20,140 bases of DNA from a virus: positions 1 to 20,140 of the IMG/VR virus record IMGVR_UViG_3300023110_000217; one strand, 5' to 3'. The notes below the pieces were generated by a model. It did no database searches. It saw only the letters and a list, made by a program, of their open reading frames with translations, and was not told where the DNA came from. This document shows, in pieces, positions 13,312 through 20,140 of the stretch. Both the position numbers and the translations under genes were made by a program. Each line of letters opens with the position of its first letter. Positions within the stretch are counted from its first letter, which is position 1.

Positions 13312-15612
13312 TTATGCCGTGAACGAAGCTCCAGTCGGTAGAATGTTGAAATCAAGTACAATGAATTCAGCAGTTTTAGTTGGTTGTAGATAAATCTGAC
13401 CAGCTAAGATGTTTCTATCGATTACATCTGGAGTATTATTTGTTTCATCCATTACAACTCTAAACGCATATAAACCTTGTCTTTGTTGGATTCCCTCTAA
13501 ATATGGGTTTACTGTGTTTAAGAACTTAGAACGAGTTGTAGCAGTGTTTTGTTCGAATACTAAGTATCTTGAAGTTGAAGCGATATACTTCTTAACTTTG
13601 ATAAGTAATCTACGAACATTAATTCTATCAAGAGCTGAAGCTCTATCTTGAAGGGTTTTCTGACCAAATGCAACAATACCTTCTCCTGGGAATTGTGCGA
13701 TTGGGTTGATTTTTCCTTCATATAATGTATCTCTTTCAGAGTGTGTTAATCTGTTAAGAACTGAAACAGCACCTACGATACCACCACGATTAAGACCTGC
13801 AGGAGCGAACCACTCAGCAGCAACTGCATCGTTAGCAGCATAAATTCCTGGCATCAATACAGATGGTGGAACTGAAGTTAGTTTATTAGTTCTTGAGTCG
13901 ATTGTTTTAACCCATGGGTAGTAAGTACCAACATAGTTAGAATCTACTGCCTGTCCTTGGTCTACTGCATCTGTAATTGTTGCATCAGCACCAACTACAT
14001 CACCAATGAAAAATGCGTCTTCTCTAGCTTCACACATATCAACGATTTTATCGAATACATACGAGTGATGTTGTCTTACAATACCAGGTGCAGATACTAA
14101 GTTAATATCGAAATCATCTGGGTTAGATACTGAGTTAATTGCTTTTACATAAGAAACTGAACCGCTAGATGTTGAACCAGCTAAATCAAATCCTTGTGAG
14201 TTACCTGAAGAAATATCTGTTCCTTTATCACTAGATACTGTTGGAGATACACCATCGAATCCGCCTTGGAATCCTACAATGAGTTGTCTCTTATTAATAT
14301 CTGCAGCTGATGAACCAGTTAATTCATAAGATAATTGAGAATCAAATGCAAATACTACATTTGAACCAGTTCCAGCGTTTGTTGGGATTGGTTTTAAGTA
14401 ATGTGCATTATCAATTTTAGTTACAGATGTTTCTAAATCAATACCACTATAAGATGTACCATTAGATGCAGTGTTTGAATCTGAATCTGTTTGGAAAACT
14501 ACAGCAGGTACTTCTGAACCACTTGCAACTAAGATTGGGTTTTGATATTCTGCATGTCCAAATGGTCCCGCGATGATAGGGAATGAACCTTCGTTAGAAC
14601 ATTCTACTCTAATATAAGATGAACGGTTTCGGTAATCACCATTTAGAGTTTGTTTTCCGTTTGCATCAATAGTAATATTGATATCACCAATTACTTTCTT
14701 AATGTAATTTGGAGATGCAGGGTCTAAGTTAACATTATTAAATGTTTCTAAAATTGAAGGTCTTTTATCTGTATCAGAATATCCACGAACCACGATAGAG
14801 AATGTTGCATAATCAGTAGCATTAGATTCTCCAGCAGCTTTTACATTAAAGATACCAATCTTATATTCTTTATTATAGTTAGAACCATCACCTAAAGTGT
14901 GGAAACGGAATAGGTCATGTCTTTCACCTGATATCAACTGTGATTTAATCCAAGGAGTTGTTGCGTGTTGAATATCAAATCCAAAATCTTGGTCTGGTAA
15001 AGTTTCTAAAATTACTTCACCACCAGCAGTTAATGTTGATGCTAAATCAGTTGCTGCTTTTTCGAAGTAAACATATGAGTAAGCTTTTTTAGAACCACGA
15101 GCAGATTCACCGAATACATCAGATAAATCATTTGCTGCAGATGGTAAAATAGATGCTGACACTGCAGTTCCTAACGCTGAACCGCTAATTGAGAACGCAG
15201 AAGCACTTGGTTGAGCATCAATAGTAGTAGATGGTAAACCTACCGACTCATCTCCATTATGAGTTACGAAAAGAGAACCTACTACTTTAATAGCACCAGA
15301 ACCACTTGCCTGAACTTTGATTGCTACAGGGTCAACATGAGTATAACCACCGGTGTGTCCAACACGAACGATAGTTACAGTTCCAGCTTCTCTTAAATAA
15401 TTTTGTACGGTATATCCTGTATAGTATGTTCCATCAGGTGTACCGAAGATTTTTTCAAATTCTGATTGGGTGTTTACAACGGTTGGTACGAACGCAGGTC
15501 CTTTATGGAAAGGTCCAATTACTGCTGCTCCGATTTCTCCAATCCCTTGTGCTAAGAAAGAAAGGTCATTCTCTCTCGTAAATACACCAGGTGATACAAT
15601 TTTTTCTGCCAT
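13312..15612 (-). CDS. 18: Tail sheath protein (T4 gp18-like)
   Basis: 766 aa (T4 gp18 is 659). The N-terminus MAEKIVSPGVFTRENDLSFLAQGIGEIGAAVIGPFHKGPA is the classic gp18 handle sequence, with VPTVVNTQSEFEKIFG next. The C-terminal domain (about 540-766) has the sheath signatures VLMPGIYAANDAVAAEWFAPAGLNRGG, INPIAQFPGEGIVAFGQKTLQ, RRLLIKVKKYI and the end EFIVLDFNILPTGASF. Residues about 110-520 are Ser/Thr/Gly-rich, form the surface domains and account for the extra length. Sheath subunits contract to drive the tube into the cell. The gene has AAGGAG before the ATG, a TATTTATA element 43 nt upstream and a short hairpin between them. I see no terminator behind it, so readthrough into the tube gene is likely. 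Confidence 0.97.
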   Translation of the reverse strand: MAEKIVSPGVFTRENDLSFLAQGIGEIGAAVIGPFHKGPAFVPTVVNTQSEFEKIFGTPDGTYYTGYTVQNYLREAGTVTIVRVGHTGGYTHVDPVAIKVQASGSGAIKVVGSLFVTHNGDESVGLPSTTIDAQPSASAFSISGSALGTAVSASILPSAANDLSDVFGESARGSKKAYSYVYFEKAATDLASTLTAGGEVILETLPDQDFGFDIQHATTPWIKSQLISGERHDLFRFHTLGDGSNYNKEYKIGIFNVKAAGESNATDYATFSIVVRGYSDTDKRPSILETFNNVNLDPASPNYIKKVIGDINITIDANGKQTLNGDYRNRSSYIRVECSNEGSFPIIAGPFGHAEYQNPILVASGSEVPAVVFQTDSDSNTASNGTSYSGIDLETSVTKIDNAHYLKPIPTNAGTGSNVVFAFDSQLSYELTGSSAADINKRQLIVGFQGGFDGVSPTVSSDKGTDISSGNSQGFDLAGSTSSGSVSYVKAINSVSNPDDFDINLVSAPGIVRQHHSYVFDKIVDMCEAREDAFFIGDVVGADATITDAVDQGQAVDSNYVGTYYPWVKTIDSRTNKLTSVPPSVLMPGIYAANDAVAAEWFAPAGLNRGGIVGAVSVLNRLTHSERDTLYEGKINPIAQFPGEGIVAFGQKTLQDRASALDRINVRRLLIKVKKYIASTSRYLVFEQNTATTRSKFLNTVNPYLEGIQQRQGLYAFRVVMDETNNTPDVIDRNILAGQIYLQPTKTAEFIVLDFNILPTGASFTA

Positions 15613-15692: not shown

Positions 15693-15977
15693 TTACTCTG
15701 AAACTTCTTCTTTAGAGATTGGAGTGAATGTATTTGTTGTTGGGTCGTAATTACCATCACCATATTTTTCATTCAATCCCTTAAAAAGGTCTTGTTCTTG
15801 TTGTTGTAACCCTTTGTGTTTTTCGATTAGTTGTTCTTCTAAATCATCTAGTTCATCTAATCTTCTGTTTCTCTCAATAGATAATTGTCCTAATTGAGTA
15901 AAAACATTTGCAACTTCTTGACGAAGTTGGTTAATCGATTGTACTTCTTCTTCTGTAAATTGGATTGTTTCTGCCAT
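15693..15977 (-). CDS. 94-aa coiled-coil protein between Hint protein and sheath
   Basis: MAETIQFTEEEVQSINQLRQEVANVF begins a long acidic helix; heptad-like hydrophobics continue through QLSIERNRRLDELDDLEEQLIEKHKGLQQQEQDLF (about 30-67), then a short non-helical tail (KYGDGNYDPTTNTFTPI). This is very probably a coiled coil over residues 8-70. Similar short 'FTEEE...LRQE' coiled-coil proteins occur in marine phage structural regions as far as I recall, without known function. It has its own TATTTATA element and no Shine-Dalgarno sequence, lies in the late block, and could be a small structural or chaperone protein. Confidence 0.75.
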   Translation of the reverse strand: MAETIQFTEEEVQSINQLRQEVANVFTQLGQLSIERNRRLDELDDLEEQLIEKHKGLQQQEQDLFKGLNEKYGDGNYDPTTNTFTPISKEEVSE

Positions 15978-16043: not shown

Positions 16044-17312
16044 TTATCTCGTAAATGTTAATGTACTTGACCAAGTTCCCTTCAATCCAGCTTCAATTGC
16101 ACGAACTCTAAAATACCAAGTTCCTGCTGCTAAAATTGTGTTAACTTCAACTTCAGTTGTACTCCATTCATCTGCAGTATTTTCAATCGAACTAAAGTTT
16201 GATGCTGCAGATATTTGATATTCATATGCAGTTACACCAGTTGTAGTAGTATCAGATGGTGCTGTCCATGTTACCAATGGTGATGAATATGTTACAGAGG
16301 TAGGTGCACCAGGACCTGAGAAATCTGAATGCGAGTTACCTCCTTTATTGTGAGTAATATATCCATTAACCATATAAGTATCTTCTTCTTCAACATCAAT
16401 TGAAATAATTTCAGTTGTTTTTTCTACTACTTCAATAGAAGTAATATCAACTTCAGTTCCATCACCTTTGATTAGTTTATCACCAACTACTAAGTTGAAC
16501 ATTTCTTTGAATAAATAATCACCACCTACTGAATCTTTAACTAACATTGGGTGTTCTGATGTTGCAGTTACCTCACCATCGTTAATATCATAATATCTTG
16601 GTGAGAACGAATAAGTTAAATTTACAACTGTTACATCTTTTGCTGTTGTAGATAATTCAGATGATGACCAATCTAAGAAAGTTCCATCTGAATCAGTTCC
16701 TAAACCACCAATTGAGAATCCTTTTAATAAATCTCCTTCAGATAATTCACCAGCTTCAATTGTTGTTCCATCTGCAAGTGTTACAGGTGAATCAATCGTT
16801 AAACATAAAGCAGTTGAGTTACCATCATATGAATCTACCGAATAAACGGTTTTATCTCTATTTGTATTATAGTTTGTTGCATGGTCATTAAATCCATCAG
16901 CAAAAACTACTCTTAATGTATGAGTTTCAATTCCTTGTAATGTAGTTTGTGTTACAACATCAGTCATGTTACCAACTGCAAAAGTAGCAGTTGCTCCACT
17001 ATTTGTATCTAATGAAATTTTAGTACCAGTTGGAACTGACCAAGTAAAGTTATCTGACCGTGTTGAAATTTTAGAAAAGTCTGAACCTGCACCAGTAAAA
17101 CCAAGTGTGTAGGTTTCCGATGTATTTTCTACTGCATAAGTATAACCACTAATATCACCTACTGCATCTATATAAAAATCGCTACCAAGAGAAATATTAT
17201 CTCCAGATACAGGTGAACCTTTAATAGTTCCTAATGAAATGTCTGATACACCTTGTCCTGTAGCAGAACCAAGATTATTTAAACTTAGAGTGTCTCCTGA
17301 TGATACGGCCAT
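16044..17312 (-). CDS. Virion-type protein with embedded self-cleaving Hint domain and C-terminal FN3 domain
   Basis: 422 aa in three parts. Residues 1-169 are Ser/Thr/Gly-rich and beta-like, as in phage appendage or decoration proteins. Residues 170-322 form a compact Hint (intein/hedgehog) domain without homing endonuclease. Cys170 starts it (LCLTIDSPVTLADGTTIEAG), followed by ELSEGDLL, the block-B motif Thr251-Ser-Glu-His254 (TSEHPML), VVGDKLIKGDG at 275-285 and the terminal YMVNGYITHN with His321-Asn322. Residues 335-422 are a fibronectin type III domain (PTSVTYSSPLVTWTAPSD...YFRVRAIEAG). The residue after Asn322 is Lys323, not Cys/Ser/Thr, so normal splicing is not expected. Cleavage at one or both borders, as in bacterial intein-like domains, is. 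AGGAG precedes the ATG and a TATTTATA element lies 25 nt upstream. The gene sits between the glycosyltransferase and sheath genes. The role in the virion is inferred from context. Confidence 0.85.
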   Translation of the reverse strand: MAVSSGDTLSLNNLGSATGQGVSDISLGTIKGSPVSGDNISLGSDFYIDAVGDISGYTYAVENTSETYTLGFTGAGSDFSKISTRSDNFTWSVPTGTKISLDTNSGATATFAVGNMTDVVTQTTLQGIETHTLRVVFADGFNDHATNYNTNRDKTVYSVDSYDGNSTALCLTIDSPVTLADGTTIEAGELSEGDLLKGFSIGGLGTDSDGTFLDWSSSELSTTAKDVTVVNLTYSFSPRYYDINDGEVTATSEHPMLVKDSVGGDYLFKEMFNLVVGDKLIKGDGTEVDITSIEVVEKTTEIISIDVEEEDTYMVNGYITHNKGGNSHSDFSGPGAPTSVTYSSPLVTWTAPSDTTTTGVTAYEYQISAASNFSSIENTADEWSTTEVEVNTILAAGTWYFRVRAIEAGLKGTWSSTLTFTR

Positions 17313-17328
17313 TTATATTTTCTCCTAT

Positions 17329-18324
17329 CTAACTATTATAAATATCAAGGAACTCTCTTACCCATCGTTCTTTATCGGTAAAATTGTCCTTCATATATTG
17401 TTTTAGATGTAAAAACCACTTATTTTTTTCCTCATAAGGGGTTTCAATTAACTTATTATAAATATGATGAAATTCTTTTTTATTAGATGCTCTATAAGGA
17501 TATTCCAAATCTTTACACCAACTTCCATTTAATATTGGTAATTTACCCATATCTACTGATTGAAAGATTGAATAACCAAATGGCTCTGATGTAAAGGATG
17601 AATGTGATATACCCCAATCCATATTCCAAAACTTATCACTAAATTGAGAATCATAATGAAATATTCTAGATTTAGACATATCTAACTTTGCACCATTTTT
17701 CCAAATTGTATTAAATTCAAGTGAATTAGTAAAAACTAAACTTGGTAACCCATCTAAATAGTGTGGATTCTTTCTACCTTCACATCTTGCAGCAAATCCT
17801 AATTTATTTGACTTACTTAAAGGTTTATTGTGTTTAAATTCGTAAAAGTTGGTAATATTTGTATTTTCTATAAGAATTTCATATAACCCAACCCAAATTG
17901 AATGTTTTGCCCATTCGTTTATTTGTTTTTCCCAAGATGAATCTAAATAAGGATGCCAACCTAATGAAGCATCAGTTCCAACTTGTGATTTTAAAATATG
18001 GTCTACTGAATTATGTAAAATATTCGAGTAAATCTTGTGTTTATTTTCTTCCAATACTTTCATTGGAGTGTAATGACCATGTAAGATATGTATTCTTCTA
18101 CAATCTTTGATTATTTTTTCAAATTTGAGAATATCATCTCCGTGCCAATGTGATTCTATTGGAAATTGAAAATCTTCATGACCTTTGGGTTTATTTCTAT
18201 GTATGAGAAGAACGGGTTTAACTTTTAACTTTGATGCAATTTCTTCTAACCAAATATTAACCCAAGTATCAGTACCTGCATTTACCCAAGGCCCTCCACC
18301 TGTGGTATAATAAACATCATACAT
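17329..18324 (-). CDS. GT-B-type glycosyltransferase (family 4-like)
   Basis: 331 aa. The N-terminus has a Gly-rich loop (TTGGGPWVNAGTDTWVNIWLEEIASKL, about 7-33), as in the first Rossmann domain of GT-B enzymes. Near the C-terminus is the nucleotide-sugar motif of GT4-like enzymes, Glu247-Pro-Phe-Gly250 (SEPFGYSIFQSVDMGKLPIL), followed by a helical tail ending in a basic/aromatic helix (WVREFLDIYNS). No signal peptide or membrane helix is seen, so it acts in the cytoplasm. It starts 3 nt after the tail fibre stop, has no Shine-Dalgarno sequence, and is probably co-expressed with the fibre. Likely jobs are glycosylating a virion appendage or host surface sugar; donor and acceptor cannot be told. 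Sequence is divergent outside the two motifs. Confidence 0.7.
   Translation of the reverse strand: MYDVYYTTGGGPWVNAGTDTWVNIWLEEIASKLKVKPVLLIHRNKPKGHEDFQFPIESHWHGDDILKFEKIIKDCRRIHILHGHYTPMKVLEENKHKIYSNILHNSVDHILKSQVGTDASLGWHPYLDSSWEKQINEWAKHSIWVGLYEILIENTNITNFYEFKHNKPLSKSNKLGFAARCEGRKNPHYLDGLPSLVFTNSLEFNTIWKNGAKLDMSKSRIFHYDSQFSDKFWNMDWGISHSSFTSEPFGYSIFQSVDMGKLPILNGSWCKDLEYPYRASNKKEFHHIYNKLIETPYEEKNKWFLHLKQYMKDNFTDKERWVREFLDIYNS
17337..17344 (-). promoter_or_regulatory. Late-promoter-like TATTTATA element before the Hint-domain gene
   Basis: Coding strand GATATTTATAATAGTTAGAT, 25 nt before the ATG, overlapping the last codons of the glycosyltransferase gene. AGGAG follows directly. Confidence 0.55.
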
Positions 18325-18327
18325 ATT

Positions 18328-20140
18328 TTATTTTTTTACGATTATTACTCCAGCAAATGTACTTGAAAATACAACAGTAACTTGATTTGCCGAATCTGAA
18401 GTAATTGAAGTTGGTACTTCTTGTTGAGATGTAGAAGTATTCCAAGCTTGTACTATTGGATATTGTTCATTTAAATCATGTTTTATTTCATATGTAGAAT
18501 AGTTTTCAACTTCTTCTTTATAAGTTGTTAAATCTGTAATTTGTGAAGAACCACTAATTACACCACCTGGTAAAGTTAAATCATCTTCTGTTGCAACATC
18601 ATCTTTATCAGAAAATTGTATTTTACCATCACCATCTACTTTAATTTTTCTTGCAGTTGCACCACTACCAATTTGTAATTCATTAACAACTACTTTTTTA
18701 AGAGCTTGTGTATCTGAATCTTTAAAGTTTATATCTCCTGAATCATCTCTTGTAATAAGAGTACCACCCAAATCAATTGTTGAACCACTTAAAAATAAAT
18801 CTCTAAATCTCTTTGATGATGAACCTAAATCATATACTTCTGTTGTATCTGGTAAAATAGGTCCGTAAACTTCCATAGTAGTACCTTGTTGAGAACGAAC
18901 TTTAGTAAATGCATTTGAAGTATAACCACTTTCAACAGAAGATTGTTCACTACTTTGATTTGTGTTTACAGTTACATTAGCTAATAATGTTGTACTTCTT
19001 GGAATTACATCCATATCTACGGTTACATTTCCATAGATTGTTCCAAGAGTTTCAAATGCTAATATAAACCCTGCAGTAGTTGTTTGTTTTGTCCAAAGTA
19101 GAGGATTAATATATCTACCTCCATTATACTCTTCGTGGTAATTAACCGTCCAGCTTAGAGCTGGTAGAGTATTACTTCTTAATGCTGCATTAAAATAAAC
19201 TGTATGAGTTTCTCCTGCATTTTGGGCAGTCATTCTACCTACAATCTGATAGTTATTTGAATTACCACTTGGTATTATAGTTACAACCTTTTGATATTCA
19301 CCACTACTAAAATAACTACCGTTACTATTACCGTAATAAACTTGATTAAAGCTCATTACATTTGAGTTGTTATATCTTACCTCTGTAAAATAAGGTGAAT
19401 CACTACCTGAACCGAATACAGGTCCATTAAGTGTAATAGCATCTAGAGTACTTCCACTAAGTTGTGATGAACCACTAATTAAACCATCACCATTCAATTC
19501 TGCAAATACTCCATAATTAGAAATTTGAGTTGATGATGAAACCAACCCATCTATATCAAATAAATCAGAATCTATTTGTTCGGATGATGATATAAGTCCA
19601 CTTGGAATGTTATTAAGATTAGAATAATCTAAGTAATATGAAGCAGGTTGTCCATTTAAGTTAGATGCATCACTAGCAGAACCACTTACAATATGTCCAC
19701 CTTTTGCAACCACAACAAATCCACTTTGAGCAGATGATAAAACTACTTGTACGGTATTTTGGTCTGTTAAAGATACAGTTTGTGGTATAATTTGATTATC
19801 GTTGTTATCATATACAGATACAATTACATTTTTAGAATTGAAGTTGTGTCCAACATTTATTGTAGATTGGTTATCAAATGAAGATGTTACAGTTGCTACT
19901 TGAGATATATCAGCTGTAGGTAAATTTGTTAACTTTGAACCATCACCAACAAAGTATGATGCAGTTACTGCACCATTTAATTTGAGAGAACCTGTTATAT
20001 AATTTTCGGTGTTTGTGGTAAGTATTTCAGATATGGTTGAGGTACCTGAATCTTTTTCGAAGAATATTCTACCATCATAGGTGTTTATCGCCAATTCACC
20101 GAGTTCTAAATTACTCGTTGTTGGGACTTTACCAGATACC
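18328..20140 (-). CDS. Tail fibre / appendage protein, 5' end cut by window edge
   Basis: The frame is open to the right edge. A TTG at 20094 could be taken as the start, but 15 in-frame codons precede it and encode VSGKVPTTSNLELGELAINTYDGRI, the usual interior sequence of T4-like phage fibres, so the gene is 5'-partial (at least 603 codons visible). Numbering from that TTG: a GDGSKLTNLP module at 50-59; a beta domain at about 78-131 (VGHNFNSKNVIVSVYDN...GFVVVAKGG), repeated at the C-terminus (535-588, IKHDLNEQYPIVQAWN...GVIIVKK); and four short linkers of the GLISGSSQL type at 166, 183, 204 and 511. It should form trimeric fibres or a neck/baseplate appendage that binds the host. A glycosyltransferase gene follows immediately. 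The protein is Ser/Thr/Asn-rich throughout, so the exact appendage cannot be named. Confidence 0.85.
   Translation of the reverse strand, partial: VSGKVPTTSNLELGELAINTYDGRIFFEKDSGTSTISEILTTNTENYITGSLKLNGAVTASYFVGDGSKLTNLPTADISQVATVTSSFDNQSTINVGHNFNSKNVIVSVYDNNDNQIIPQTVSLTDQNTVQVVLSSAQSGFVVVAKGGHIVSGSASDASNLNGQPASYYLDYSNLNNIPSGLISSSEQIDSDLFDIDGLVSSSTQISNYGVFAELNGDGLISGSSQLSGSTLDAITLNGPVFGSGSDSPYFTEVRYNNSNVMSFNQVYYGNSNGSYFSSGEYQKVVTIIPSGNSNNYQIVGRMTAQNAGETHTVYFNAALRSNTLPALSWTVNYHEEYNGGRYINPLLWTKQTTTAGFILAFETLGTIYGNVTVDMDVIPRSTTLLANVTVNTNQSSEQSSVESGYTSNAFTKVRSQQGTTMEVYGPILPDTTEVYDLGSSSKRFRDLFLSGSTIDLGGTLITRDDSGDINFKDSDTQALKKVVVNELQIGSGATARKIKVDGDGKIQFSDKDDVATEDDLTLPGGVISGSSQITDLTTYKEEVENYSTYEIKHDLNEQYPIVQAWNTSTSQQEVPTSITSDSANQVTVVFSSTFAGVIIVKK

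Follow-up and report, generated by a model that had tools for sequence, protein, structure and literature searches.

Outside of Hedgehog and the inteins, few natural Hint domains have a known biological role. In Hedgehog, the C-terminal autoprocessing domain places a Hint after a processed N-domain, which is activated as a thioester and transferred to cholesterol, and a terminal His-Asn is lacking. The self-processing module of FrpC from Neisseria cuts itself and then forms an isopeptide bond to a Lys; its fold is unrelated to Hint, and the reaction proceeds through Asp-Pro chemistry.

A-type bacterial intein-like (BIL) domains, such as CthBIL4 (2LWY), have the Hint fold, Cys1, a TxxH motif, and a terminal His-Asn followed by a non-nucleophilic +1 residue. 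They are located in variable surface proteins, and their C-flanks are described as diverse. According to PMC5874633 and PMC4031507, the latter citing Dassa 2004 and Aranko 2013, cyclization of the terminal Asn in these domains liberates an alpha-amine capable of attacking the N-terminal thioester. A nucleophilic +1 side chain is therefore dispensable, and both splicing and cleavage have been reported for A-type BILs without one. Cleavage is the main outcome for A-type BILs that have HN and lack a nucleophile at +1 (PMC7765530).

BIL2 is encoded by BUBL1, a eukaryotic polyubiquitin locus of the ciliate Tetrahymena thermophila. We take this domain to be without a +1 nucleophile, as is the phage Hint described here. 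BIL2 (6TMM, 6Y75) sits between two independent domains and is reported to attach its N-flank to lysine (PMC8616854, PMC9200820). The product is a K(epsilon-NH2) isopeptide bond through which ubl4 becomes linked to ubl5 or Ras, the acceptor Lys belonging either to the downstream ubiquitin-like domain or to Ras (PMC8616854). Lysine-accepting protein self-processing is represented by this one ciliate locus in the literature searched. The open-access literature searched yielded nothing on Hints in phage virion proteins; its phage papers deal with genuine inteins of terminase and RNR, or with the absence of inteins.

A Hint domain in a phage appendage protein

The window, meaning the whole stretch of 20,140 nucleotides that was analyzed, encodes a Hint-bearing surface protein of jumbo-phage origin. 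The gene for this 422-aa appendage protein is on the minus strand at 16044-17312, with its ATG start at 17312 and its stop at 16044-16046. The product is probably a surface precursor belonging to the tail appendage. A sequence-only reading had reported the same ORF without naming a strand, and it placed Cys170, Thr251-Ser-Glu-His254, His321-Asn322, and Lys323 exactly as found here, with 153 residues from Cys170 to Asn322.

The N-extein (residues 1-169; 16806-17312) is composed of a short N-terminal motif (LSLNNL...) and a beta-rich domain, and has a D160-x-Y162 motif (16827-16835) located 8-10 residues before Cys170. The Hint domain (Cys170-Asn322; 16347-16805) begins with the predicted thioester residue, Cys170 (16803-16805). 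It contains block B, T251-S-E-H254 (16551-16562), and ends with the predicted Asn-cyclization site, His321-Asn322 (16347-16352). Lys323 is the +1 residue (16344-16346), and the C-extein includes an FN3 domain (residues 339-420; 16053-16298).

As a single sequence, the protein has PT-HINT (PF07591) as its best Pfam match (E=5.8e-5), at 23.8 bits against a cut-off of 27.7. TIGR01445 intein_Nterm also falls under its curated cut-off (E=6e-4), and this match begins exactly at residue 170. The fn3 match over residues 339-420 is likewise weak and under its cut-off (E=0.002, single-sequence Pfam search). A family profile of 34 homologues, when compared with the PDB, matched BIL2 (6Y75/6TMM) at E=1.4e-6 and CthBIL4 (2LWY) at E=2e-4. 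The AlphaFold model of the 422-aa protein was made from 34 homologues and has a mean pLDDT of 82.8; a single-sequence model (pLDDT 32) was useless and was discarded. In Foldseek, the model aligned to BIL2 with E=2e-10 and a target-normalized TM of 0.79. The BIL2 of Tetrahymena is the nearest solved structure by both sequence profile and fold, though the two share only about 21% identity. Low-confidence stretches at residues 162-168 and 326-331 border the Hint in the model, and the domain is therefore placed between two folded domains and not within one. The earlier proposal of a Hint lying between a beta-rich N-part and FN3 is borne out by the family profile, the predicted fold, and the fn3 match. 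The profile search that it recommended returned PT-HINT and intein_Nterm weakly from the single sequence, and BIL2 and CthBIL4 from the family profile.

By its anatomy, the domain resembles an A-type BIL, and auto-cleavage or splicing activity is predicted from the sequence. It combines the Hint fold, a Cys at position 1 (where Cys or Ser is expected), the block-B TxxH, and a terminal His-Asn followed by a non-nucleophilic +1 residue. Its setting is also that of A-type BILs, a variable protein with swapped C-exteins in an appendage gene cluster, and it is BIL2-like in both sequence and fold. All class-1 catalytic positions of Hint are present except for Ser/Thr/Cys at +1, where the phage protein has Lys323. 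In BIL2 the setting is a polyubiquitin locus, whereas here it is an appendage protein with Lys fixed at +1. The phage Hint is unlike Hedgehog in having HN followed by Lys. Cutting followed by a Lys isopeptide is shared with FrpC as a proposal, while the fold and the Asp-Pro chemistry differ. The PT-HINT domains of polymorphic toxins release a toxin, and in the seven bacterial PT-HINT junctions collected the +1 residue is C, A, or S and never K; the phage protein has FN3 as its C-part and no toxin domain.

Several neighboring genes are also on the minus strand. Directly upstream is a partner gene of 331 aa (17329-18324), GT-B-like by motif only (EPFGYSIFQSVDMGKLPI), and next to it a fibre-like structural protein (18328-20139) that extends beyond the window end. 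Downstream are a conserved 94-aa coiled-coil-like protein (15693-15977) and the tail sheath protein (13312-15612). The sheath and glycosyltransferase neighbors named by the sequence-only reading fared differently: the sheath is confirmed by profile, and the glycosyltransferase is suggested by a motif, with no Pfam, PDB, or NCBIfam match.

Lysine at and after the C-terminal junction

Homologues were collected with queries of differing bias: the whole protein, a profile, the N-domain alone, the Hint cut before +1, and the neighboring gene alone. The profile query is a biased one because its pattern contained HNK. Lys is at +1 in 201/203 distinct N-domain-family proteins with a readable C-terminal junction; the other two are a paralogue with Thr (L357) and a degenerate sequence (L384). 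The scan with only the N-domain as query gave Lys in 57/57 distinct members. Among the 105 members read at the codon level, the +1 Lys is encoded by AAA in 95 and AAG in 10, and Arg occurs in none. Cys170, His254, His321, and Asn322 are invariant in all 201 Lys-+1 members, which differ widely in overall identity and have synonymous codon changes. By this comparison, the +1 Lys is nearly invariant, on a par with Cys1, the block-B His, and the terminal His-Asn. The survey for HNK that had been suggested earlier thus came out in favor of the motif, and relatives losing Cys170, His254, or Asn322, named in advance as contrary evidence, did not appear among the 201. The earlier view of Lys323 as merely a missing nucleophile does not fit a feature kept this closely.

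Other positions in the family are also constant. Gly follows the +1 Lys in 97% of members. D160 and Y162 of the N-extein, which adjoin the low-confidence linker, are invariant in 201-202 aligned sequences. E301 is invariant in the N-domain family and was considered as a co-conserved partner of the +1 Lys; GT-linked Hints whose +1 residue is Val have it as well, and we therefore claim no coupling.

The C-extein is exchanged among family members. The FN3 domain of this protein is found in 137 members, and the alternatives are a ConA-like lectin domain of 220-257 aa (Laminin_G_3, E 4e-15 and 6e-6), another beta-domain of 138-145 aa, and a bare tail of 4-27 residues, such as KGSN or KGSDSNPF. The +1 Lys is retained across all of these. 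Because the C-extein is swapped while the Lys stays, the Lys belongs with the Hint and not with the downstream domain.

Phage Hints with other N-parts form the extreme C-terminus of structural proteins. They were found in Erwinia and Dickeya jumbo phages, phage NCTB, a Shewanella prophage-type tail fibre, and many metagenomic phages, and their +1 residue is V, A, S, T, G, R, or K. A first set had Lys in 19/20 distinct short tails. This pattern was noticed after the fact and was therefore retested on newly fetched sequences, with the expectation taken from equal-length C-termini of 1246 other ORFs from the same loci. The new sequences had Lys in 11/11 tail clusters (50% identity), where 5.0 were expected. 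Over all clusters, with tails of 1-30 residues, Lys was present in 35/36 against 16.5 expected, with a P of 7e-12 that is nominal because the clusters are still related and not fully independent. A general preference for C-terminal Lys or overlapping ATGA starts accounts for about half of the observed frequency. Arg shows no excess (3/36 against 5.2 expected), which makes mere charge a less likely cause. The shortest tails read K, DK, KH, KIS, and KVD, and the position of the first Lys ranges from +1 to +10. A tail Lys is missing from three phage Hints whose ends lack HN (CHQ, CRQ, and HSET).

A scan of bacterial genomes with the Hint profile found only four loci, three of them in Shewanella. 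In Shewanella surugensis (L273:4189-6489), a tail-fibre-like protein of a probable prophage has the Hint tail HN-SDTAKP, and its host is culturable. Tandem Hints, two or more head to tail, are present in some phage ORFs, mainly in L454-L510. Their joints read ...HN-IPPGKCFTGDT... or HN-IPPFCFVAGT..., and they look like self-processing modules within one protein.

Possible fates of the predicted Hint thioester

The lysine pattern is best explained by Lys amines, whether at +1 or further along the tail, accepting the Hint thioester in cis. In the proposed mechanism, Cys170 would turn the Leu169-Cys170 peptide bond into a thioester, and Asn322 would cyclize, cutting before Lys323. The amine of Lys323 would then accept the N-fragment, either directly through its epsilon-amine to give an isopeptide or through the alpha-amine freed by Asn cyclization. 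The Hint would be released, and the mature product would be the N-domain linked through Lys to an FN3 fragment, a lectin fragment, or a short tail. The same reactions could also draw on a Lys in a different molecule. We give this reading, in which the Cys170 thioester is resolved by the Lys323 amine and the N-domain is joined via Lys to the C-fragment, a probability of roughly 0.45. The near-invariant +1 Lys and the tail Lys together suggest that these viruses finish surface proteins by a lysine-dependent cut-and-join reaction. A fixed catalytic role for the Lys is less likely because its position varies among Hints, and this spread is more in keeping with a flexible nucleophile. Chemistry at +1 would not be uniform, since other phage Hints carry V, A, S, T, or G there. 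The statement of the sequence-only reading that this Hint cannot splice normally is too strong, because A-type BIL domains can ligate by aminolysis, and those without a +1 nucleophile are reported to both splice and cleave (PMC4031507, PMC5874633).

The main rival is plain A-type BIL auto-cleavage at both ends of the Hint, giving the N-domain, a free Hint, and a released FN3, lectin, or tail. Here the +1 Lys would only tune the reaction, by speeding Asn cyclization or blocking splicing, or would be a remnant. We consider this a real but clearly less probable outcome. It agrees with the mainly cleaving behavior of HN-bearing A-type BILs that lack a +1 nucleophile (PMC7765530), with the short-tail members that have no domain to join, and with the swapped C-exteins, which show that the C-part is dispensable. 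It leaves unexplained why Lys is near-invariant at +1 and why it is kept in tails of 1-4 residues that would be discarded, and release of a lectin or FN3 from the virion has no obvious use. The three free fragments predicted by the sequence-only reading are thus one possible outcome and not the sole one, given how seldom Lys323 varies. In another alternative, the Hint acts as a BIL2-like dispenser: the Cys170 thioester would hand the N-domain to a Lys on a different molecule of the virion or host, or to a glycan in whose synthesis the GT-like enzyme takes part, and the cis Lys would be a fallback acceptor. Passage of a fragment to another nucleophile, which had also been raised earlier, has a precedent by analogy in Tetrahymena BIL2, where the N-flank goes to lysine (PMC8616854), and ubl4 is joined to ubl5 or Ras in this way. 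The N-domain was never seen without a Hint (0/105 distinct N-domain ORFs). Direct fusion would suffice if the outcome were simply an N-domain joined to the C-domain, so the constant presence of the Hint speaks against plain cis joining and suggests that timing, release, or transfer in trans counts for more. The GT-like gene also lies directly upstream in 292/292 Hint-centred loci with room and in 77/79 informative divergent loci centred on the GT-like gene. Nonetheless, no acceptor molecule was identified, the GT assignment comes from a motif, and phage gene order can be kept without a biochemical link, and we consider trans conjugation improbable.

Two further explanations fit the comparison poorly. 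An inactive Hint, kept as a structural domain, would agree with the loss of HN in a few relatives (CRQ/CHQ in L051/L052; HSET in L049). The invariance of C, H, H, N, and K over 201 diverse sequences with synonymous codon changes makes it very unlikely. Least probable of all is a true intein, which would be a mobile element excising itself and joining its exteins canonically. The Hint fold is complete, with blocks A, B, F, and G, but there is no Ser/Thr/Cys at +1 and no endonuclease, the insert is located between domains of a variable protein, and empty alleles are missing from the same 105 distinct N-domain ORFs.

Returning to the Lys323 amine as acceptor, a bolder form of this proposal makes phage virion Hints a distinct self-processing class. 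In this class, a C-flank lysine would be the required acceptor of the Hint thioester and would yield isopeptide-linked, topologically branched surface proteins without ATP or a ligase, alongside a dedicated GT-like partner. We put this forward tentatively, with the odds clearly against it. Nothing in the open-access literature searched described the near-invariant Lys, the lysine-tail rule, or the link to a GT-like gene. A large phage family in which a near-invariant Lys replaces the usual nucleophile offers a clean, testable case of lysine-accepting self-processing. If true, lysine acceptance would be a new way to finish virion surfaces, would account for the many structural proteins of jumbo phages that finish with a Hint and a tiny lysine tail, and would provide single-turnover ligases for isopeptide engineering.

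The GT-like partner gene

The partner gene has an EPFGYxIF[EQ] motif, which is EX7E-like and similar to the one in retaining glycosyltransferases of the GT-B type. Searches against Pfam, PDB, and NCBIfam gave no GT family match, so its function is suggested by the motif alone. When loci were centred on this gene, a Hint was directly downstream in 75/75 close loci, and in the two divergent informative loci that deviate, it was within about 600 nt. In 12 of the divergent loci no sheath gene lies nearby, which indicates that the Hint and GT-like pair is more stable than its surroundings. In a 484-kb uncultured phage, the two genes are adjacent with their order reversed.

In several related loci (L200, L206, L271, L354, L051:2313-3011, and L052:4019-4717), another protein with a C-terminal Hint, distinct from the first, is encoded immediately or a short way upstream of the GT-like gene. 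This results in a Hint-GT-Hint order, and the second Hint in L051 and L052 ends in CRQ and CHQ, respectively, without Asn or a tail. More genes that resemble glycosyltransferases or sugar enzymes by eye follow the Hint gene in L047:7069-13028, L049, L050, and L051, and in these divergent relatives they resemble a surface glycosylation island. The window itself also contains a 259-aa ORF at 1416-2195 on the minus strand that looks, by eye, like a phytanoyl-CoA dioxygenase-type (Fe/2OG) enzyme.
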